Part shown: positions 7 to 9,050 of the stretch, piece by piece
Layout: every line of letters starts with the position of its first letter
How positions within the stretch are numbered: the stretch's first letter is position 1
Assembly (NCBI GenBank): GCA_021775595.1
Contig: JAJFHN010000003.1
Coordinates: 1 to 49,335, forward strand
From: Hyphomicrobiales bacterium
GTDB taxonomy: Bacteria; Pseudomonadota; Alphaproteobacteria; Rhizobiales; Methyloligellaceae
DNA length: 49,335 nt
Direction of reading: 5' to 3'
Program-made: the position numbers and the translations under genes
The notes under the pieces: generated by a model
The model's database searches: none
What the model was told of the DNA's origin: nothing
Seen by the model: the letters and a program-made list of their open reading frames with translations, nothing else

Positions 7-858
7 ATGACAGCGCCCAATCACGTCGTATGTTTTCTCGCCGCGCTCGTCGCGCTTATCTGGCCCCACCAGGCAATGTCCCGCCCGCTCGACGACGTCA
101 CCAAATCCGGTTCGCTGCGCATTGCCGTTTATCAAGAATTCGAACCCTTCTCCTACATGGAGAATGGTGAGCTTACGGGCATCGATGTCGACATCGGCAA
201 GGCGCTGGCCAAGTCGCTCAATCTCAAACCGACCTTCATGAACCTGCAAGCTGACGAAGACGTCGACGACGATCTGCGCAACGCCGTCTGGAAAGGCCAT
301 TATCTGGGCGGCGGCGTAGCTGATGTCATGTTGCACGTGCCCGTCGATCCGCAAGTCAAACAACGCAATGAATTCGTCGTGATCTTTGGCCGCTATTTCA
401 CCGAAGGCATCGCGGTCGCAGCCGACCCCAACAAGGTCAAAAACGTAGTCACGATGGCGCCGTTCCTTGACGAAAAGATCGGTGCCGAAATCGACACGCT
501 GGCGTCGTTTTACCTGGGCAGCGCCTTTGGCGGCCAGTTGCGCGACAATATGGTGAGCTACAAATCGATCGCCTCTGCGGCTGAAGGATTGAAGAACCGC
601 GAGGTCGCCGGCTTGATGGCGATCAGGAGTCAGGCCGATTGGGCCGCCAAAGTGGCCGGCGCGCCAATCGCGGTTGTGCAACCCTCAATGCCCGGCCTGA
701 TGGTACGCAATTGGGACATCGGCGCCGCCGTGAAGCACGATTCACGCGATTTGGGTTACGCCATCGGTGATGAACTGACCAAATTGCGCCAATCGGGTGA
801 AATGGAAAAGATTTTTGCCAAATATGGTGTTAAACACAGTGCGAAATTCCTAGATTGA
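7..858 (+). CDS. Periplasmic family-3 solute-binding protein of a quinoprotein module (XoxJ/MoxJ-like)
   Basis: A 283-residue exported protein. Residues 1-25 form a signal peptide with a hydrophobic core and an AMS cleavage context. The rest reads as a bacterial extracellular solute-binding protein family 3 fold, opening with SGSLRIAVYQEFEPFSYMENG and followed by a GIDVDIGKALAKSL segment. In methylotrophs and other PQQ-dehydrogenase users such proteins (MoxJ/XoxJ) accompany the dehydrogenase and are thought to help its maturation or activation in the periplasm rather than feed an ABC transporter. No permease or ATPase gene is adjacent, which fits that role. It is first in a co-directional run with the SoxYZ-like carrier, metallohydrolase and PQQ dehydrogenase. 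Only six bases lie upstream, so the start cannot be tested further and an upstream cytochrome gene may be cut off. The role is inferred from context. Confidence 0.8.
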   Translation: MTAPNHVVCFLAALVALIWPHQAMSRPLDDVTKSGSLRIAVYQEFEPFSYMENGELTGIDVDIGKALAKSLNLKPTFMNLQADEDVDDDLRNAVWKGHYLGGGVADVMLHVPVDPQVKQRNEFVVIFGRYFTEGIAVAADPNKVKNVVTMAPFLDEKIGAEIDTLASFYLGSAFGGQLRDNMVSYKSIASAAEGLKNREVAGLMAIRSQADWAAKVAGAPIAVVQPSMPGLMVRNWDIGAAVKHDSRDLGYAIGDELTKLRQSGEMEKIFAKYGVKHSAKFLD

Positions 859-925
859 GTTCTAGGATAGTAGACTTAGACTGGATTCCTGCCTGGCTTT
901 AGGCGACCTCGGACAGGAGGACTTC

Positions 926-1744
926 ATGCGCACTCCAATCGCTGCTGCCGCCGCACTCTGGCTGAGCATCAGCGTCGCCTATGCCGCCGATCCTCCCGCC
1001 GATCCTCTCAAGTCGGTCATGTGGGGCCAGATGTATGAGCGGCATTTTTCGGACAAACCAGTCGTCTTTGACGACAAAGTCAGCGTCATCGCGCCCAAAT
1101 TGGCCGAAGACCAGACGGCTATTCCCGTCACAGTCGATGCCAGCGCGCTTACGGGTGTGCGCGAAATCGTCGTAATCGCCGACCTCAATCCCATTCAAAA
1201 GGTACTGAGCTACGAACCGGTTCAGGCCAAGCCATACATCACGTTCCGCTTCAAGGCCGAGCAAGGCACGCCCGTTCGCGCCGCGGCCTTGACCGAGGAC
1301 GGCGTTTGGCACATCGGCGGCGTTTATGTGGATGCAGCCGGTGGCGGCTGTACGAGCCCGGCGCTCGCCCATGGCAAGCCCGACTGGGTTTCACGCCTGG
1401 CAGAGGTACGAGCAAAGGTTTGGCGCACGCCAGGCCAATCCACCGCCCGGTTGCGGCTGCGCGTTCAACACCCGATGGATACGGGGCTCGCGGACGGCAT
1501 CCCGGCCTTCTTCGTCGAGCGACTGGAAATCCAAGGCAATGACGGCAAGGTGCTTGGCAGATTGCGCATTTATGAGCCCGTGTCTGAGAACCCGACACTG
1601 ACCCTGATGCCGAATTTGGGACCGGCCGACGACCGCGTGATCGTCAAGGGTCGTGACAACGAGGGCAACACTATCGACGCCGTGGTCCCTGTCGGCGTGC
1701 GCTCCAGCGCGCTAGAAACCGGACCCAACCGCGCCACGCGATGA
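926..1744 (+). CDS. Quinoprotein dehydrogenase-associated fused SoxYZ-like carrier
   Basis: A 272-residue exported protein with a signal peptide over about residues 1-20 (cleavage after AYA). The first half resembles SoxY and ends in a Gly-rich GGGC segment whose Cys142 is the only cysteine in the protein. The second half (about 160-260) resembles SoxZ. In sulfur oxidation SoxY carries intermediates on the cysteine of a flexible Gly arm at its C-terminus; here that arm is internal because the two subunits are fused. Fused carriers of this type are known beside PQQ dehydrogenases, where the cargo is undefined. An AGGAGGA ribosome site sits five bases before the ATG. The stop overlaps the next start (ATGA), so translation is probably coupled to the metallohydrolase. 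No other sox gene is in view, so sulfur oxidation as such is unlikely. Confidence 0.85.
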   Translation: MRTPIAAAAALWLSISVAYAADPPADPLKSVMWGQMYERHFSDKPVVFDDKVSVIAPKLAEDQTAIPVTVDASALTGVREIVVIADLNPIQKVLSYEPVQAKPYITFRFKAEQGTPVRAAALTEDGVWHIGGVYVDAAGGGCTSPALAHGKPDWVSRLAEVRAKVWRTPGQSTARLRLRVQHPMDTGLADGIPAFFVERLEIQGNDGKVLGRLRIYEPVSENPTLTLMPNLGPADDRVIVKGRDNEGNTIDAVVPVGVRSSALETGPNRATR

Positions 1745-2775
1745 CCCAAGACAAGACGATATCGCGCGAGCGCCGCGCTGCGGCGCTCAATTCCTGGCCG
1801 CGCCAGTGGCCCAGCAGGCTTGATCGAAGAAGTTTCATGGGCCGGACAGCCGCATTGGCCGGCGCCGCCTTGCTGCCGCAAACCGCCGGCGCGGCGCCTC
1901 AGCAGTATGACCTGCAGGCGATAGAGATCGCGCCCGACACGTATGCCGTCTATGGCGCGCGCGAGCACTTTACCCGCGCCAATGGCGGCAACATCGTCAA
2001 CATCTCCTTCATCGCAACCGATGACGGCGTGGTCGTCATCGATACCGGCCCCTCGTTGCGTTACGGCCAAGCGTTGAAGGCGCTGATCGAAAAGACCACC
2101 AAGCGCCCGGTGACGCGCGTCTACCTGACACACGACCACCCCGACCATGTTTTCGGCAACCAGGCCTTCGATCCCGCCGTCATCGCCTCTCTGCCCGGCG
2201 TCATCGCCAATATGAAGACAAACGGCGAAATGTTTGCTGAGAACATGTACCGCCTGGTCGGAGATTGGATGCGGGGCACCGAGCTTGTTTTGCCTGGCGC
2301 CGCGCTTGAAAAAAGTTCCGAACGCTTTGGATCCCACGAATTCGAGCTGATCCGCATGGCGGGTCACACCAGCTCCGATCTCGTTGTTTTGGACAAAAAG
2401 ACCGGTGTCCTGTTTACCGGCGATATTGCCTTTCTCGACCGGGCGGCAACGACGCCGCACGCCGACTTGGCGCTCTGGCACAAGTCGCTGAATGAGCTGG
2501 AGAAGAGTTCCTTTGCCACGCTGATGCCGGGGCACGGTCCAGCCGAGAAGGGCAAGCGCGCCATTGAGCAGACGCGCGATTACCTCACCTGGCTCGAGAC
2601 GACGCTCAAGTCGGCCATCGCCGAAGGCCTCGACATGAATGGCGCCATGGCGGCTCCGATCCCACAGCGGCTGCAGGCGGTCGCACTGGCGCGCGAAGAG
2701 ATGGCGCGCTCGGTTTCCCACCTTTATGCCAAATTCGAAGAACCGTTTTTGCCCGTGGTCAGCAATCGCAGCTGA
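1741..2775 (+). CDS. Tat-exported metallo-beta-lactamase-fold hydrolase of the quinoprotein relay type
   Basis: A 344-residue protein. Residues 29-33 (RRSFM) followed by a hydrophobic stretch and an AGA cleavage context form a twin-arginine signal, so the folded metalloprotein is probably exported by Tat. The metallo-beta-lactamase metal site is complete: HDHPDH at 132-137, His210 in MAGHTSSD, Asp229 in FTGDIAF and His266 in MPGHG. A homologue set beside PQQ dehydrogenases and SoxYZ-like carriers has been named quinoprotein relay zinc metallohydrolase. A link with a cysteine carrier suggests thioester or persulfide hydrolysis, in the manner of glyoxalase II or SoxB-like steps, but no substrate is shown. 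It overlaps the carrier gene by four bases, which argues for a shared function. A beta-lactamase role is improbable. Confidence 0.85.
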   Translation: MTQDKTISRERRAAALNSWPRQWPSRLDRRSFMGRTAALAGAALLPQTAGAAPQQYDLQAIEIAPDTYAVYGAREHFTRANGGNIVNISFIATDDGVVVIDTGPSLRYGQALKALIEKTTKRPVTRVYLTHDHPDHVFGNQAFDPAVIASLPGVIANMKTNGEMFAENMYRLVGDWMRGTELVLPGAALEKSSERFGSHEFELIRMAGHTSSDLVVLDKKTGVLFTGDIAFLDRAATTPHADLALWHKSLNELEKSSFATLMPGHGPAEKGKRAIEQTRDYLTWLETTLKSAIAEGLDMNGAMAAPIPQRLQAVALAREEMARSVSHLYAKFEEPFLPVVSNRS

Positions 2776-2853
2776 GCGGGCATTGTGGCAACTGTGTGAA
2801 TTTACTGGGTTGGCGTGTGAGAATTTGCAGCTACAATCGCCGCGACCCCCGAT

Positions 2854-2945
2854 CATTGGGCAAAATAAGACAATTGCGTTCAATCGAACCAGCTCGCCCA
2901 ATGACCATGATTGACCTAGAAAATTGACTGAAGATCAAATTGACT
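2854..2945 (+). promoter_or_regulatory. Inverted repeat and triple ATTGACY repeats upstream of the PQQ dehydrogenase
   Basis: The 194-base gap before the dehydrogenase holds two patterns. CATTGGGC (2854-2861) and GCCCAATG (2896-2903) form a perfect 8-base inverted repeat. ATTGACC (2910), ATTGACT (2923) and ATTGACT (2939) form three direct repeats spaced 13 and 16 bases apart. They are placed as a promoter with activator sites would be, and a strong GGGAGGAG ribosome site follows. Which protein binds is unknown; the adjacent LuxR-type regulator is a candidate. Confidence 0.4.
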
Positions 2946-2969
2946 GATCGACGTAAGGGAGGAGTTTAA

Positions 2970-4736
2970 ATGATCACGTTTCGAGTGATTTATCTGTTGC
3001 TCGGCGCATTGGTTCTAGCGGTGATTGCCGCAAGCACTGGCGTCCGAGCCGAAGGCGTCACCAAGCAAGACATCTTGAACGACCAAAAAACCACAACCGA
3101 TGTTCTGACCGCAGGAATGGGACCCCGCATCCAACGCTGGAGCCCGCTCGATAAAGTCAACAAGGAGAACGTCGCCAATCTGGTACCGGCATGGTCATTC
3201 TCCTTCGGCGGCGAAAAGCAACGCGGACAAGAGAGCCAGGCGCTTTATCGCGACGGCGTGATTTACGTGACGGGTTCGTATTCCCGCATGTGGGCCATCG
3301 ACGCGCGCACCGGCGAGGAAAAATGGCAATACGACGCCCGCTTGCCTGAAGGCATTCTGCCCTGTTGCGACGTCGTCAATCGCGGCGCCGTGCTCTTTGG
3401 CGATAAAGTCTATTTCGGCACGCTGGATGCCAAGCTCGTCGCGCTCAATGCCGAAACCGGCAAGGTCGTCTGGCGCAAGGAGCTCGGCGATTTCAAGGCC
3501 GGCTATTCATATACCGCCGCGCCGTTGATCGTAAACGACATGCTCGTCACCGGCGTTTCCGGCGGTGAATTCGGCATCGTCGGACGGGTCGACGCCCGCA
3601 ACGCCGAGACCGGCGAGCTCATTTGGTCGCGTCCCACCGTTGAAGGCCATGTTGGCACGCTCAACGGCAAGCCCTCCACCATGACCGGCAAGGTCAACGA
3701 AAGCTGGCCCGGCGACATGTGGAAATGGGGCGGCGGCGCCACCTGGCTCGGCGGAAGCTACGATCCCGACGTCAATCTGATCTATTTCGGCACCGGCAAC
3801 CCGGCACCGTGGAACAGCTTCATGCGCCCCGGCGACAACAAGTGGACCTCCGCGCGCATCGCTCTCAATCCCGATAACGGCGAAATCGTTTGGGGCTTCC
3901 AAACCACGCCAGGCGACGGTTGGGACTATGACGGCGTCAACGAGTTCATCCCGTTTGACACAGAAGTGGACGGAAAGACCGTGAAAGCCGGCGCCACTGC
4001 CGACCGAAACGGCTTCTTCTACGTACTGGACCGCACCAACGGAAAGTTCATCCGCGGCTTCCCATTCGTCAAAAACATCACTTGGGCGAAAGGGTTGGAC
4101 GAAAACGGCCGGCCAATCTTCGATCCGAAATTCCGGCCTGGAGATCCGACCAAGTCGAGCGACCCCAAAAAGGGCTCGTCCGTCTTCGCGGTGCCTTCGT
4201 TCCTCGGCGGCAAAAACCACCAACCGATGGCTTACAGCCATCTCACCAAGCTGTTCTATGTGCCCTCCAACGAGTGGGGCATGGATCTTTGGAACACACC
4301 CGTCACCTATAAGAAGGGCGCGGCTTATCTCGGCGCCGGCTTCACTCTGAAGCCGCTGTTCGATTATGTCGGCTCGCTGCGGGCAATCGATCCGACCACT
4401 GGCGAGACCAAGTGGGAACACCGAAACAAGGCCCCCTATTGGGGCGGCGTGCTCACCACCGCTGGCGGCCTGGTCTTTATCGGCACCCCTGAGGGCTACC
4501 TCAAGGCCATCGACGATGAAACCGGAAAGGAACTTTGGAAGTTCCAGACTGGCTCGGGCATCGTTGCACCACCCATGACTTGGGAAATGGACGGCGAGCA
4601 ATATGTTGGCGTTACGTCGGGTTGGGGCGGCGCGGTTCCGCTGTGGGGCGGCGAAGTCGCAAAGCTGGTGAAGTACCTCAATCAAGGCGGCAGCTTCTGG
4701 GTCTTCAAGCTGCCTAAGAAACTCGCGGCCAACTGA
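2970..4736 (+). CDS. PQQ-dependent alcohol dehydrogenase with lanthanide-type active site (ExaF/PedH-like)
   Basis: A 588-residue periplasmic quinoprotein with a signal peptide ending near residue 27 (GVRA). It is an eight-bladed propeller dehydrogenase that oxidises alcohols and passes electrons to cytochrome c. Adjacent cysteines 132-133 match the vicinal disulfide that packs on PQQ. Glu200 (SGGEFG) is the expected metal ligand. Asp319 in the motif WDYDG is the catalytic base, and Asp321 two residues later is the extra acid that marks lanthanide-using XoxF and ExaF/PedH enzymes; calcium enzymes of the MxaF type have Ala there. Overall motifs (GFT.KP, the [10 protein letters not shown] end) look more like the ethanol/ExaF-PedH group than XoxF, so substrate range is uncertain. 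It has no fused cytochrome domain and no MxaI-like small subunit nearby. A strong ribosome site precedes the ATG and a hairpin follows the stop. Confidence 0.9.
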
Positions 4737-4758
4737 CATCGGCCAACGCATACGATAC

Positions 4759-4786
4759 GGCCTCCCCGCGCTTCCGCGGGGAGGCC
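4759..4786 (+). terminator. Strong GC hairpin after the PQQ dehydrogenase gene
   Basis: A perfect 12-base stem (GGCCTCCCCGCG and its complement) closes a CTTC loop, starting 22 bases after the dehydrogenase stop. The position suggests transcript termination or 3'-end protection. There is no U tract after it (AAACACC follows), so intrinsic termination is not certain; a REP-like element is the alternative. Confidence 0.55.
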
Positions 4787-4836
4787 AAACACCCTCGGCG
4801 CTTCCATCCCAGCAGCGCCCGGATTTTGGAGGTAAC

Positions 4837-4875
4837 ATGTCAAGCCTGACCGAGCAGCACTGGTTCTGCCGATGA
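4837..4875 (+). CDS. Possible 12-codon leader ORF before the LuxR-type regulator
   Basis: A short frame encodes MSSLTEQHWFCR. It has a near-consensus ribosome site (GGAGG seven bases before the ATG), whereas the regulator start four bases after its stop has none visible. The frame differs from the regulator's, so it is not an N-terminal extension. It could serve as a translational-coupling leader. It lacks the Glu-x3-Tyr motif expected of the PQQ precursor PqqA. The peptide itself may have no function. Confidence 0.35.
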   Translation: MSSLTEQHWFCR

Positions 4876-4879
4876 TCCG

Positions 4880-5548
4880 ATGACGCACGCCATGCGTTTT
4901 TTGATCGTTGAGGATCATCCCCTGTTTCAGCAGGCGCTTAGCATGCTGTTGCGCCAATCAATGCCAGGGTCTGAGGTGCTTGTGGCTTCTTCGATCGAAG
5001 AGGCCATTGACCTTCTGACACAAGACGGGCGGATTACTCTGGCGCTGCTCGACCTGCACCTGCCGAACACGCGTGATTTTTCTGGATTGTTGAAGCTGCG
5101 CAAAAAATTCCCGCGCGTCCCCTTCGCTGTCGTCTCGAGCCTGGACGATCCTGCCATCGTGCGCGAAGCCATCGGCTTCGGCGCCATGGGCTTCATTCCA
5201 AAATCATTCGTAAAAGACGACTTTAAGCGGATTATTTCTGAAATTTTGTCGGGCGAAATCTATGTGCCGCCGGGTTTCTTGGACGCCAAGCCATGCGAGA
5301 AGAGGGCCAAGCGCGATCAGCTCTGCCGGGGACTACAAAGTTTGACGCGCCGGCAGCTGACCGTTTTGCAAAAAATTCGCGAGGGCAAACCAAATCGCGA
5401 AATCGCCGACGATCTTGGCGTGCGTGAAACGACGGTCAAAGCCCATGTCTCGGATATTCTGCAAAAGCTCGACGCCTTCAGCCGAACACAGCTGGTAGCC
5501 ATCTCCAAGTCATTGGAATTCGATCAGATCGGTTCCAACCGCGCTTGA
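4880..5548 (+). CDS. LuxR/NarL-type response regulator
   Basis: A 222-residue two-domain regulator. The receiver domain (about 5-125) has the acidic pair E11-D12, phospho-acceptor Asp58 in LLDLHLP and Lys108 in IPKSF. The C-terminal LuxR helix-turn-helix (about 150-215) reads LTRRQLTVLQ...NREIADDLGVRETTVKAHVSDILQKL. Similar regulators (AgmR/EraR/PedR1 types) control PQQ alcohol dehydrogenase genes in pseudomonads, so control of the neighbouring quinoprotein module is a reasonable inference. It converges with the hybrid kinase gene, 16 bases apart. An alternative start at codon 5 (MRFLIVEDHP) is equally plausible; neither has a clear ribosome site, which may reflect coupling to the short ORF upstream. 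Confidence 0.9.
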   Translation: MTHAMRFLIVEDHPLFQQALSMLLRQSMPGSEVLVASSIEEAIDLLTQDGRITLALLDLHLPNTRDFSGLLKLRKKFPRVPFAVVSSLDDPAIVREAIGFGAMGFIPKSFVKDDFKRIISEILSGEIYVPPGFLDAKPCEKRAKRDQLCRGLQSLTRRQLTVLQKIREGKPNREIADDLGVRETTVKAHVSDILQKLDAFSRTQLVAISKSLEFDQIGSNRA

Positions 5549-5564
5549 GGGCGTGCGGCCGCCG

Positions 5565-6989
5565 CTATGGCGCGTTTATCAGCGAGTTCATCACCGTGCG
5601 CAGCTCCGCCGGATTGACCGGTTTTGTCATCGGTTGGCAGTTTGCCAACAGAACCCGCTGATAGGTGCTGGGGCTGTGGTCGGCGGTCACGACGACGGCC
5701 GGCACCTCGAAACTATTCAACTGCCGGATCGCGTGAATGGCATCGAGACCCGTGCGATTATCGCCCAAATGATAATCGGCGACGATGATGTCGGGTGATT
5801 TGTCCGCATCGTTGACCCGCTCGACCAACTCATCGACGTCCCGGGCAATGATCGTCTCGCATCCCCAGCGTTGCAACCGCATGTCGAGGGCTTCGAGCAC
5901 GTTTTCGTCATCCTCGATTACCGCAACGACGCAATCGTTCAGCAGCCGATCCGGCAGCGGCGACCGAACGGGGATGTCGGACGCACCCTTGCGCTGGCGT
6001 CCCCACATGGGGATATCGACCCAGAACACCGATCCCTCGCCCGGATAGGATCGCAAGCCGATCTCATGGCCCAGCACGCGCGCAATCCGCGTCACGATGG
6101 CCAGGCCCAATCCAAGCCTGTGGGTGTTGCTCTCGTGCGATGCACCGATCCGGTAGAACTCTTCGAAGATCGCCTCATGCTCATCGGGATCAATGCCAAT
6201 GCCGGTGTCCCAGACCTCGATGCGCACGGTCTCGTCTTTCATCCGGCAGCCCACCAACACCTTGCCCTCGGTGGTGTAGCGCAAGGCATTGGACACGAAA
6301 TTCTGCAAGATACGATGGATCAAGACGGCGTCCGAGCGCACGAAAAAGGAAGACGGCACGACCCGCAATTCGAGCCCGCGGGCTTCCGCCATCGGCGAAA
6401 AATCGATGTTCAGACTCTCCAGAATTTTGTGCAGCGCCAGCCCGCCGATGTGCGGCCGCATGACACCTGCATCGAGTTTTGAGATATCGAGCAAAGCCCG
6501 CAACAGCCGTTCGACCGTCTCAAGCGAGTGCTCGGTCTGCGTAACCAGCTTAGAAGCATCGCTGTCGGCCAACTCATCGGTGAGGATCGAGATCGATAAC
6601 CTTGCCGCGTTCAGCGGCTGCAGCAGATCGTGCGTCGCCGCCGCCAAAAACCGCGTCTTCGATAGATCGGCCTCTTCCGCCGTTTCCTTTGCGACCCGTA
6701 GCTCGTGGTTGGCCTTTTCGATTTGTTGCAGCGCGTCGCGCAATCGGTCGGTGCGCTCGTTGACGACGTCTTCAAGCAGAATTGCGGTCTGGAACAGTGA
6801 AAAGGGATTTCCCTGAGGGTCAACCGTCTGTTCGACCCGCTGCATAAGCACACGGTTTATCTTCTCCAACCGCTCGACTTTCTGTTCCAACGCTTTGACC
6901 CGACCGCCAGCGGTTCGCCCATTGAGCGGCGCGGAGTCGAACAAGACGATCTCGTCGTCTTCCGTCGAAAAATCTTTGGGTCCGGCCAT
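5565..6989 (-). CDS. Hybrid sensor histidine kinase with C-terminal receiver (NahK/ErcS'-like)
   Basis: A 474-residue cytoplasmic kinase without membrane helices. Residues about 28-112 are predicted coiled coil. The dimerisation domain has His120 in AAATHDLLQPLNA. The ATP domain has Asn230/Asn234 (QNFVSNALRY), DTGIG at 261-265 and GLGLAI near 293. A receiver domain (about 350-474) has the phospho-acceptor Asp405 in VADYHLGD. The HDLLQPLNA box and the layout match the NahK/ErcS' group of pseudomonads, some of which sit next to PQQ-ethanol oxidation regulators. The FIST-domain gene lies 15 bases upstream on the same strand, so the two are probably co-transcribed and the FIST protein may supply the sensory input. 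The partner is likely the convergent LuxR-type regulator or a histidine phosphotransfer protein elsewhere. Confidence 0.9.
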   Translation of the reverse strand: MAGPKDFSTEDDEIVLFDSAPLNGRTAGGRVKALEQKVERLEKINRVLMQRVEQTVDPQGNPFSLFQTAILLEDVVNERTDRLRDALQQIEKANHELRVAKETAEEADLSKTRFLAAATHDLLQPLNAARLSISILTDELADSDASKLVTQTEHSLETVERLLRALLDISKLDAGVMRPHIGGLALHKILESLNIDFSPMAEARGLELRVVPSSFFVRSDAVLIHRILQNFVSNALRYTTEGKVLVGCRMKDETVRIEVWDTGIGIDPDEHEAIFEEFYRIGASHESNTHRLGLGLAIVTRIARVLGHEIGLRSYPGEGSVFWVDIPMWGRQRKGASDIPVRSPLPDRLLNDCVVAVIEDDENVLEALDMRLQRWGCETIIARDVDELVERVNDADKSPDIIVADYHLGDNRTGLDAIHAIRQLNSFEVPAVVVTADHSPSTYQRVLLANCQPMTKPVNPAELRTVMNSLINAP

Positions 6990-7004
6990 TGCTGCTTGTG
7001 TGCC

Positions 7005-8162
7005 TTATCGGGCTCCGATTGCCATTCCGGTTAGCGTCTGGTTGAGGTGCATGGCGCGAAACTGCTCGCCATAGCAATGGAACCCAACCACTTGGTTTTC
7101 GGCATAGATCGCCTCGACCCGCTGCTTCAGTTGATTGCCCTCGATTTCGAGGCGCCGGAACAGGCACTCAAAGCCCAAAACCAGCTGTGGCCGGCCAACC
7201 TGCACCCTTATGTCGTCGAAGGTCGATCTGATATTTTCGATGATGTCGTCGGCCCGCGCCAAACTGAACACAACGCCGGTGTCCACTGCACTCATAAACG
7301 CCAAACCATCGCCTTCACATACTTCCTTGATTGCCCGGGCATAGAATTTGCCGCCAACGCGCACCGCAAGCGGGTGTTGGGCGAATTCGGTTGGGCCCAA
7401 CTCGTCCAGCGGCGCGCCAATGGCGGCGGCGTATTCCACCGCGGCCGGCGCCGCGTTGAACTCGTAGACAATGCGCCGTTCGGCATCGGCCTTGGTGACC
7501 ACCATGCGCACTTCGGTCGGCTCATAATGATCACAACTGAATGCACAGAACGGCAATTGGCAGCGAGCGATCAGCAAGATCGCCGCGTTGTCATAGACCT
7601 TGCCCTTGAACATGATCTTTGTGCCGGTGAAGGTCATTTGATCGGCAGCCGATGCGCCGACCAATGGCGCACCGCGCAGCGATACGTTGAATGCGGCCGC
7701 CAGCTGCTCCTCCCGCTGAGAGAGACCATCGGCAAACATCAAGCCAAATGTGTCGCTGCGATTGAGGCCGCCAACACGCCTGTCCAGTGTGTAGAAGGCA
7801 TCTTGCACCATGCTGCCCACATCCTGGCTGCGCAATTCGCGCAAATCCTCGACCAGCTTGGGCACGAAGGCGAACGTTTCGGTCGAAAACCCGATGGCCA
7901 CGATCGAACCTTCAATCATGCCCTGAGGCGAAAACTCACCCGCCGTCGAGCAGCCGACCACAACAGTGGGTGAGAATACGTTGCTCAGGGCTTGCGCCAG
8001 GTTTTCGGCGTCGAAGCGGGGCGAGAAAAAGACCAGCAGCAGGCTAAGGTAATGTCCGCTCAATTGTTCCTGCAACGACGAGACGGCATCTTCGACGCGT
8101 TCTTCATGCGTCGTGGCGTACCAAATATCTGTGGCCGGTGGTCTTACGTCGCGCGTTTCCAT
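7005..8162 (-). CDS. FIST-domain sensory protein (NosP-like)
   Basis: A 385-residue soluble protein with an N-terminal FIST domain (LLLVFFSPRFD, VVVGCSTAGEFSPQG, about 35-220) and a FIST_C domain (about 225-365, including the DELGPTEFAQHPLAV and EGDGLAFMSAVDTG segments). FIST proteins act as ligand sensors feeding signal transduction. In Pseudomonas and Vibrio, NosP members bind heme, sense nitric oxide and modulate a co-encoded hybrid kinase. The same gene pair is seen here, with the kinase 15 bases downstream. Several His residues (for example in CDHYEP and GFHCYGEQF) could ligate heme, but I cannot tell from sequence whether heme is bound. Small-molecule sensing other than NO is the alternative. 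Confidence 0.8.
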   Translation of the reverse strand: METRDVRPPATDIWYATTHEERVEDAVSSLQEQLSGHYLSLLLVFFSPRFDAENLAQALSNVFSPTVVVGCSTAGEFSPQGMIEGSIVAIGFSTETFAFVPKLVEDLRELRSQDVGSMVQDAFYTLDRRVGGLNRSDTFGLMFADGLSQREEQLAAAFNVSLRGAPLVGASAADQMTFTGTKIMFKGKVYDNAAILLIARCQLPFCAFSCDHYEPTEVRMVVTKADAERRIVYEFNAAPAAVEYAAAIGAPLDELGPTEFAQHPLAVRVGGKFYARAIKEVCEGDGLAFMSAVDTGVVFSLARADDIIENIRSTFDDIRVQVGRPQLVLGFECLFRRLEIEGNQLKQRVEAIYAENQVVGFHCYGEQFRAMHLNQTLTGMAIGAR

Positions 8163-8291
8163 CTCACAACTCCGGCACGCCGCTGCTGCGGTCTATCCAC
8201 GCCAAATGCGTAGCTCGGCCCTCTGTCCCGCTGGTCCTCGAACCACCAACGCCGCCAAAAAGCGCTCGCCACACTGCGCCGAAGTTGGAAA

Positions 8292-8317
8292 CCGGGCGGA
8301 GGTCCGCCCCCGCCCGG
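8292..8317 (-). terminator. Probable terminator of the GFA-family gene
   Basis: CCGGGCGG and CCGCCCGG form a perfect 8-base stem around a 10-base loop. Read on the minus strand the hairpin is followed by TTT and lies about 25 bases after the GFA gene stop, before the FIST gene promoter region. The short U tract makes the call moderate. Confidence 0.45.
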
Positions 8318-8341
8318 CTTGTCAATTTCACCCGGCGGGCT

Positions 8342-8761
8342 TCAGCCCATGGGCGGCATGGCCTCGAATGTCGGCAGGCCGCCTTTGACGACGTCCTGGT
8401 CCCATCCCTTGCCGCTCTTGGTGTAAATCACCATTCCCGGCTCGAATTGGCCCGGATCGTCCAACGAACCAGCCTTCAGGATCATCACGTCCGGCAAGCC
8501 TGATGTTTCCGTATAAAGCGGTCCACCACAGCTGGGGCAAAACGTGCGTCCAACCGTGCTGCCGCTATCAGCCGTCACCTCATAGGTCTTCGTCTCGCCG
8601 GATACGTTCACCCCGGCCTTCGGAACGGCAAAAATTGAGCTATGTCCGCCGCCGCTATTTTTCTGGCAATCGGTACACTGGCAGTGACCACCAAAAATCA
8701 CGTCGCCGCTAGACTCGTAACGAACGGCGCCGCAATGGCAGCCACCTTTTAAGTCAGCCAT
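8342..8761 (-). CDS. GFA-family (Gfa/CENP-V fold) zinc protein
   Basis: A 139-residue protein opening MADLKGGCHCGAVRYE. It has the eight-position Cys/zinc pattern of the GFA family: GGCHCGAVRYE, then HCQCTDC, then FCPSCGGPLY. Members include the glutathione-dependent formaldehyde-activating protein Gfa, but most are of unknown function, so formaldehyde chemistry is only suggested by the nearby alcohol dehydrogenase. The start at 8761 is chosen because GGAGGA sits four bases upstream and family members begin here. A start 20 codons further up is open but would add residues not seen in the family. It stands alone on this strand between two intergenic regions with hairpin or palindrome features. 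Confidence 0.8.
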   Translation of the reverse strand: MADLKGGCHCGAVRYESSGDVIFGGHCQCTDCQKNSGGGHSSIFAVPKAGVNVSGETKTYEVTADSGSTVGRTFCPSCGGPLYTETSGLPDVMILKAGSLDDPGQFEPGMVIYTKSGKGWDQDVVKGGLPTFEAMPPMG

Positions 8762-8795
8762 ACAGTCCTCCAACATTTGACACACTTGATCTTCT

Positions 8796-8809
8796 GGAAC
8801 GAGCGTTCC
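8796..8809. promoter_or_regulatory. Palindrome upstream of the GFA-family gene
   Basis: GGAACG-AG-CGTTCC is a perfect two-fold palindrome 35 bases before the GFA start. A second one, ACTAC-C-GTAGT, lies just beyond it. It may be an operator for the GFA gene. It does not match the direct-repeat GTTC-N7-GTTC box of alphaproteobacterial LexA. The rest of 8762-9050 holds no gene I can support; its right end is AT-rich and probably carries the promoter of the next gene. Confidence 0.3.
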
Positions 8810-9050
8810 GAGCAGACCCAACTACCGTAGTAAGTCATCCGGTATAGGGTCAACAGCATAAACGGTCTTAAGCGCGATATCGTGATCGCTCGCCAACGCG
8901 GCTGCAGCTTGTTCGATGGAGAACCCAAGGGTATGGGCCAGACATCGGCCAAACTTCGGTCATGTGCGTTGTCCCCCGGCCGCCTGTAATATATATTCCA
9001 AACGTATCAATAACATACATGCTGTGTTTGCTATACAACGAGGGTTGGAA

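Follow-up and report, generated by a model that had tools for sequence, protein, structure and literature searches.

A NosP-NahK-LuxR-type gene trio beside a lanthanide-type PQQ alcohol dehydrogenase in a Hyphomicrobiales bacterium: a candidate module for the control of alcohol and aldehyde oxidation

Introduction

What might a FIST-domain protein sense, and what might it control, when it is encoded together with a hybrid histidine kinase and a LuxR-type response regulator beside a pyrroloquinoline quinone (PQQ)-dependent alcohol dehydrogenase? This question is raised by contig C16 of a Hyphomicrobiales bacterium (contig JAJFHN010000003.1 of assembly GCA_021775595.1; genome 2.9 Mb, 97.8% complete), the entire length of which, 49,335 bases, was analyzed and is referred to here as the window. 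The trio is a divergent member, outside Pseudomonas, of the known NosP-NahK(ErcS')-ErbR(AgmR) arrangement, and we consider it rather better than an even bet that three-gene modules of this type control alcohol and aldehyde oxidation, here including that by the adjacent lanthanide-type dehydrogenase; candidate signals are nitric oxide (NO) or heme, or an aldehyde. The arrangement itself is already known from Pseudomonas, and it recurs beside alcohol and aldehyde oxidation genes in many other bacteria.

Results and discussion

Family assignment of the gene trio

The sole NCBIfam match of the FIST protein is the NosP equivalog model NF041558, which spans 368 of 368 positions at 386.6 bits and thus falls below the cut-off of 450. 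This cut-off may have been tuned to other groups, since it is passed by none of 199 genomes of the order. In keeping with NosP, a single FIST plus FIST_C protein is encoded beside a histidine kinase. The kinase in turn exceeds the cut-off of the NahK/ErcS family model NF041832 (420 vs. 400 bits) and fails that of NahK/ErcS' proper (NF041831; 369 vs. 1500 bits), and, whereas NahK proper has PAS domains in its N-terminal half, none was detected in it at E 0.001. Given that the kinase carries no recognized sensor domain, the FIST protein is, judging from domain content, likely to be its input.

The regulator combines a REC and a GerE domain, and its gene adjoins and converges with that of the NahK-type kinase, which is the layout of ErbR/AgmR-type regulators. 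It is 34.6% identical to the regulator of locus L250, where NosP is likewise followed by a kinase gene (NahK/ErcS' 1772 vs. 1500 bits) that converges with a luxR-type gene. The preliminary description of the trio, which had proposed a NosP/NahK-like pair converging on a LuxR-type regulator beside a lanthanide-type dehydrogenase, is thus borne out by the kinase score, by the (sub-threshold) NosP match and by a layout that is found again at L250. The model that fits the regulator best is ErdR, but its 139.6 bits stay below the cut-off of 390. Another LuxR-type regulator of the genome, encoded on contig C66 (L312, 1495-2154) and sharing 38% identity with that of the window, comes closer with 200 bits, also below 390; ErdR was therefore not the first choice.

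The signalling residues are intact and highly conserved: His120 is retained in 146 of 147 NosP-linked kinases, the remaining one having a gap, Asp405 in 140 of 142 such kinases that show no gap there, and Asp58 and Lys108 in all 113 NosP-linked LuxR proteins. Taken together with the family assignment, these residues support the reading of the trio as one module. Among the eight proteins encoded at positions 7-8821, Pfam searches identified no GGDEF, EAL or HD-GYP response regulator of the kind found in the NosP-NahK-NarR c-di-GMP system. The FIST protein was also considered as a phage-defence component, for which no PADLOC match was obtained.

The adjacent dehydrogenase scores 772 bits against TIGR03075 (cut-off 480). 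Among solved chains it is closest to 6zcw and 6zcv, which carry the PDB name quinoprotein ethanol dehydrogenase and which we take to be PedH. By this score and by its D-x-D motif, presumably the mark of lanthanide PQQ alcohol dehydrogenases, it is classed as an enzyme of that type. Two more PQQ alcohol dehydrogenases above the TIGR03075 cut-off are encoded elsewhere in the genome, on contigs C64 and C81 (L088, L089).

Recurrence of the trio beside alcohol- and aldehyde-oxidizing enzymes

The gene neighbourhood was compared across 157 NosP loci (156 distinct sequences, L149 and L273 being identical), 117 of which, including the window, represent the order and 40 the phylum. The order-level loci were derived from an order search, a scan of genome contigs (best 80 of 575 confirmed matches) and the window itself, six loci with identical NosP having been merged (123 to 117), while the phylum-level loci were hand-picked among the matches listed in a search of 397 genomes, best scores first and then for spread, with some genomes represented twice.

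A NahK-type kinase is present at 148 of the 157 loci, being encoded downstream of NosP in 147 and fused to it in one, L278. Of these 148 loci, 113 encode a LuxR regulator at a distance of up to 7 kb, and 82 contain a gene for a PQQ alcohol dehydrogenase, an ExaC aldehyde dehydrogenase or a form-II CoxL-like protein; enzyme and LuxR occur together at 72 loci and the enzyme without LuxR at ten. The other nine NosP loci, among them those of Legionella and Zoogloea, have neither a NahK-type kinase nor, in their vicinity, a LuxR regulator or any of the counted enzymes; among them, we know of a published c-di-GMP system only for Legionella pneumophila. When the loci are sorted into 81 genus groups, which mix names and codes such that one genus may count twice, LuxR is present in 64 groups, one of the counted enzymes in 49 and a PQQ alcohol dehydrogenase in 25.

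Within the same 15 genomes of the order, a counted enzyme was found at nine of 15 NosP loci versus one of 40 arbitrary 20-kb stretches, the latter placed at chosen round positions rather than drawn at random (Fisher p = 7e-6). A family-agnostic Pfam scan of 117 open reading frames (ORFs) flanking 62 loci (one locus per genus group, NahK-type loci with LuxR only, window excluded) pointed in the same direction: among the best 25 of 66 families, PQQ was the most frequent with 10 matches, a number also reached by each of two other propeller models, then came Aldedh with 7, and then Fer2_2 and Response_reg with four each, whereas 117 control ORFs yielded one Aldedh and two Response_reg matches, and PQQ was not among the best 25 of their 115 families. 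Furthermore, on a NosP tree (fasttree) the enzyme label changes at least 23 times and the PQQ alcohol dehydrogenase label 21 times, from which it follows that the enzyme association is not one inherited block. The window sits on a long end branch of this tree (1.05) with no firm place, and the nine loci without a NahK-type kinase form a group with a support of only 83. Given that NosP is followed by such a kinase and a LuxR regulator time after time across the order and the phylum, the arrangement in the window is not due to chance.

The fused gene of L278 (7097-10672, minus strand) is a single ORF of 1191 residues comprising FIST, FIST_C, PAS_7, HisKA, HATPase_c and Response_reg domains. Its matches to the NosP and NahK models stay either slightly or far short of the respective cut-offs, and it is flanked by LuxR and ExaC genes on either side. 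Such a natural fusion supports direct FIST-to-kinase signalling.

Certain loci deserve mention in their own right. Most of the 22 Bradyrhizobium loci (among L092-L131) have two tandem luxR genes, a gene for a MoxJ-like protein and a PQQ alcohol dehydrogenase approximately 40% identical to that of the window, with CoxL-type genes farther out and, in many cases, a chemotaxis receptor encoded on the side of NosP. At eleven loci (L042, L049, L051, L053, L054, L061, L063, L065, L069, L150 and L158), genes for CoxL-like molybdenum hydroxylases with an AYRGAGR motif, which we assume to denote form II, lie on the NosP side and diverge from the module; the substrate of these enzymes could be an aldehyde. 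Zinc-dependent alcohol dehydrogenase was dropped as a linked enzyme, as the threshold was passed at one of 117 loci where clustering of the loci had suggested nine.

Proposed signalling route and its output

In the route that we propose, the FIST protein would bind a small signal and thereby modulate autophosphorylation of the hybrid kinase, which lacks PAS domains of its own. This step is suggested by the biochemistry of NosP-NosK from Burkholderia pseudomallei (PMC12570481) and by the L278 fusion. Phosphate would then pass from His120 to Asp405 and onward to Asp58 of the LuxR regulator, either directly or via an Hpt protein, and the regulator would switch the transcription of oxidation genes, as is reported of AgmR/PedR1 in Pseudomonas putida. 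The signal might be NO or heme, as in the characterized NosPs, or else an aldehyde that the dehydrogenase produces. That the module's job is the control of alcohol and aldehyde oxidation is a supported guess. In Acinetobacter baumannii, a deletion of emaSR, described as “corresponding to pedS1R1” and removing both genes, abolishes growth on ethanol (cited in PMC13390443). In Pseudomonas, a second hybrid kinase and the iron-dependent alcohol dehydrogenase (Fe-ADH) YiaY have been proposed to feed AgmR (PMC12997753). The genome under study contains no match to the Fe-ADH family (PF00465); the YiaY route therefore seems absent and the trio may account for a larger share of the signalling, no search having been made for a second ErcS-like kinase.

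Several points weigh against a role of the trio in oxidation control. CoxL and ExaC were chosen as counted enzymes after the loci had been inspected, and the enzyme queries were taken from the same loci, which also include close kin such as the 22 of Bradyrhizobium. None of the three enzymes is within reach at 66 of the 148 NahK-type loci, including all seven of the L250 group, and co-occurrence of LuxR and enzyme over independent tree pairs is not significant (median p 0.69). With regard to the kinase-to-regulator step, PedR1-dependent induction by (R)-1,3-butanediol does not require PedS1 in P. putida (PMC13390443), and the effects of a pedS1 deletion go up or down depending on the alcohol (PMC12997753). 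On account of the former result, direct phosphotransfer from the kinase to its LuxR neighbour cannot be taken as given. Published NosP work concerns biofilm, denitrification and c-di-GMP, and the genome has ten GGDEF matches. In addition, five Hpt matches are located elsewhere in the genome, and as a hybrid kinase may hand its phosphate to Hpt, its target could be a regulator other than the adjacent one.

The last of these points leads to an alternative, which we regard as unlikely, whereby the FIST protein and the kinase would act chiefly on c-di-GMP/biofilm or Rsm-type outputs via Hpt, as NahK does in Pseudomonas aeruginosa, with the LuxR regulator receiving its input from another kinase. 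The NahK-HptB-RsmA route (PMC11784011), the dispensability of PedS1 and the Hpt and GGDEF complement of the genome all agree with such an output, but LuxR neighbours accompany NosP at 113 of 148 NahK-type loci and at none of the nine others, and among the best 25 of the 66 flank families, drawn from loci with LuxR only, no c-di-GMP family appears. Control of alcohol and aldehyde oxidation through the adjacent regulator is the preferred reading.

Nature of the signal

The preliminary description had further suggested that NO or another small ligand tunes alcohol oxidation. For NO or heme, the argument starts from the fact that NosP is the only NCBIfam family matched by the FIST protein, and that in P. 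aeruginosa and in B. pseudomallei NosP is reported to be an NO-sensitive hemoprotein which acts on a neighbouring kinase (PMC11784011, PMC12570481), while that of Burkholderia thailandensis is cited as heme-responsive (PMC13259868). Cys333 and His372, which are conserved in all 157 NosP sequences, could serve as heme ligands, and binding of NO to the heme would alter the kinase and so tune alcohol oxidation. The sub-threshold NosP score argues to the contrary, and an internal source of NO appears doubtful from the gene content: the best match to copper nitrite reductase (NirK) in the genome reaches 51 bits (cut-off 296) and lies in an ORF that, among NCBIfam models, fits a multicopper oxidase best, though short of the cut-off of that model, and cytochrome d1 is represented by one partial match (33 bits, Pfam cut-off 25.5, 87 of 368 positions), although NO could still arrive from outside. 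Five COX1-family proteins exceed their cut-off, of which two were inspected, one being CyoB and one having no match, such that NorB may be among them. Moreover, no NO-related family was seen among the best 25 of the 66 flank families. On balance, a heme-based sensor of NO, or of heme itself, is a serious possibility to which we give less than even credence.

Structure prediction brings an aldehyde into consideration. The AlphaFold2 model of the FIST protein has a confidence (pLDDT) of 94.5, and its best fold match is the FIST domain of human FBXO22 (Z 23.3, 263 residues, root-mean-square deviation 4.1; AlphaFold2 model), followed by chorismatases and cyanuric acid hydrolases with Z of about 11-13. 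The same fold kinship has been reported for FBXO22 (PMC11185555). Matches to FBXO22 and to these Toblerone-fold enzymes are uninformative on heme either way. Cys326 of FBXO22 binds alkyl and aryl aldehydes covalently and reversibly, and compounds that carry such an aldehyde recruit FBXO22 in this way (PMC13316043, PMC11208438, PMC13370883). A profile of 18 FIST proteins including that of the window (A3), searched against PDB sequences, aligns this residue with Cys333, together with the arginine of a C-x-x-R motif and a G-E pair, and a count along the alignment that starts at residue 280 arrives at exactly position 326 of FBXO22; the match is weak (E 0.1), though it falls on the strongest motif and is accompanied by the shared fold. 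A search of PDB sequences with the NosP profile (A2) did not find FBXO22 and gave no useful match.

On this evidence, the FIST protein might be an aldehyde sensor, in which aldehyde from the dehydrogenase would form a reversible hemithioacetal on Cys333 and so inform the kinase. The invariance of Cys333 and the wealth of alcohol- and aldehyde-oxidizing enzymes at these loci, where neighbours make or use aldehyde, are in agreement with such a role. However, the equivalent of Cys333 is also retained in 19 of 20 generic FIST sequences, with a gap in the twentieth (L301, a mis-picked ORF), and that of His372 in 18 of 20, so that the cysteine is perhaps structural or a general reactive center; Cys326 of FBXO22 is partly shielded by a loop in a FIST domain without an obvious ligand pocket (PMC13316043, PMC11185555), and the aldehydes concerned are designed compounds. 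We know of no natural aldehyde ligand. We therefore judge aldehyde sensing in the window to be improbable as it stands. A wider version, in which the FIST domain of NosP-NahK-LuxR modules senses aldehyde via Cys333, the original job of the module being to match alcohol and aldehyde oxidation to the aldehyde load, with responses to NO or heme either drawing on this Cys/His core as well or having been added later, seems to us slightly less probable still. No earlier proposal of aldehyde sensing was found in the titles and abstract openings of the open-access papers listed on FIST or NosP with aldehyde, PQQ dehydrogenase or LuxR. Of the two options originally raised, “another small ligand” is the better one, because the gene context speaks for alcohol and aldehyde oxidation in general and aldehyde can be named as a specific candidate.

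The P. putida studies (PMC12997753, PMC13390443), in the parts cited here, do not settle which alcohol or aldehyde acts as the signal, nor which kinase serves AgmR/PedR1. Since the trio recurs beside alcohol and aldehyde oxidation genes in many genera, it merits a direct test, for which the correspondence of Cys333 to Cys326 offers a single-residue handle by which NO can be separated from aldehyde. Should aldehyde sensing prove true, the FIST domain would gain a chemistry, which may explain the ready access of aldehydes to FBXO22.

Organization of the locus

All ORFs described are open and intact, and their positions are given in Table 1. The genes for the FIST protein and the kinase are separated by 15 bp, those for the kinase and the convergent regulator by 16 bp, and those for the dehydrogenase and the regulator by 143 bp. 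The hairpin located in this last gap makes it probable that the regulator gene is not transcribed by simple read-through from the dehydrogenase. The notion of a quinoprotein operon in the preliminary description holds only in part, as the 194-bp gap preceding the dehydrogenase gene and the hairpin following it may split the transcripts. Relatives of the solute-binding protein adjoin PQQ alcohol dehydrogenase genes at other loci. The GFA-domain protein, when considered as an S-(hydroxymethyl)glutathione synthase, scores 27 bits against a cut-off of 234, and was given no weight.

Table 1. Features of the gene trio and its surroundings in the window
Feature	Position	Strand	Basis
Solute-binding protein, extracellular, family 3 (SBP_bac_3)	7..858	+	Pfam
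SoxYZ-like carrier, quinoprotein dehydrogenase-associated	926..1744	+	TIGR04557 cut-off exceeded
Quinoprotein relay system zinc metallohydrolase 1 (SoxH-like)	1741..2775	+	TIGR04558 cut-off exceeded
Perfect 9-bp inverted repeat TCATTGGGC-N34-GCCCAATGA, 5' of dehydrogenase gene; putative operator/regulator site	2853..2904	.	
PQQ-dependent alcohol dehydrogenase, D319-x-D321 motif	2970..4736	+	TIGR03075
Perfect 12-bp hairpin between dehydrogenase and LuxR genes; possible terminator	4759..4786	.	
LuxR/NarL-type response regulator, ErbR/AgmR-like; REC (Response_reg) + GerE, phospho-acceptor Asp58	4880..5548	+	Pfam/NCBIfam scan
PAS-less hybrid histidine kinase, NahK/ErcS family; HisKA + HATPase_c + Response_reg; His120, C-terminal REC Asp405	5565..6989	-	
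NosP-like single-domain FIST/FIST_C sensor; conserved Cys333, Arg336, Gly365-Glu366, His372	7005..8162	-	
GFA-domain (formaldehyde-activating family) protein, just upstream of FIST gene, same strand	8342..8821	-	

Comparison with known systems

The closest known relative is the ped/exa cluster of Pseudomonas, which in P. putida comprises PP_2663 (NosP, PA1975), PedS1 (NahK/ErcS', PA1976) and AgmR (ErbR, PA1978) together with SoxYZ-like and SoxH-like genes and PedH (PMC12997753, a 2026 review). The window shares with it the FIST protein, hybrid kinase and LuxR regulator, set among genes for a PQQ alcohol dehydrogenase and for SoxYZ-like and SoxH-like proteins, and its convergent layout is that of L250, whose kinase passes the NahK/ErcS' model. 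In contrast to Pseudomonas, the window kinase lacks PAS domains, the dehydrogenase gene directly adjoins the LuxR gene, and the genome has no match to an Fe-ADH of the YiaY/ErcA family; the FIST protein is 35-37% identical to those of L250-L253. The dehydrogenase itself resembles PedH/ExaF, the lanthanide-dependent PQQ ethanol dehydrogenase, in that 6zcw and 6zcv are the nearest solved chains and the D-x-D motif is present.

A FIST protein controlling a neighbouring kinase is likewise a feature of the NosP-NosK-NosR system of B. pseudomallei and of NosP-NahK-NarR of L. pneumophila, and NosK is described as having no recognized sensory domain (PMC12570481, PMC8846402). The partner regulators NosR and NarR carry a c-di-GMP-type domain, whereas the window encodes a DNA-binding LuxR regulator with no such gene alongside. 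Finally, FBXO22 shares with the window FIST protein the fold and the C-x-x-R and G-E core, although it is a ubiquitin ligase subunit of remote sequence similarity.

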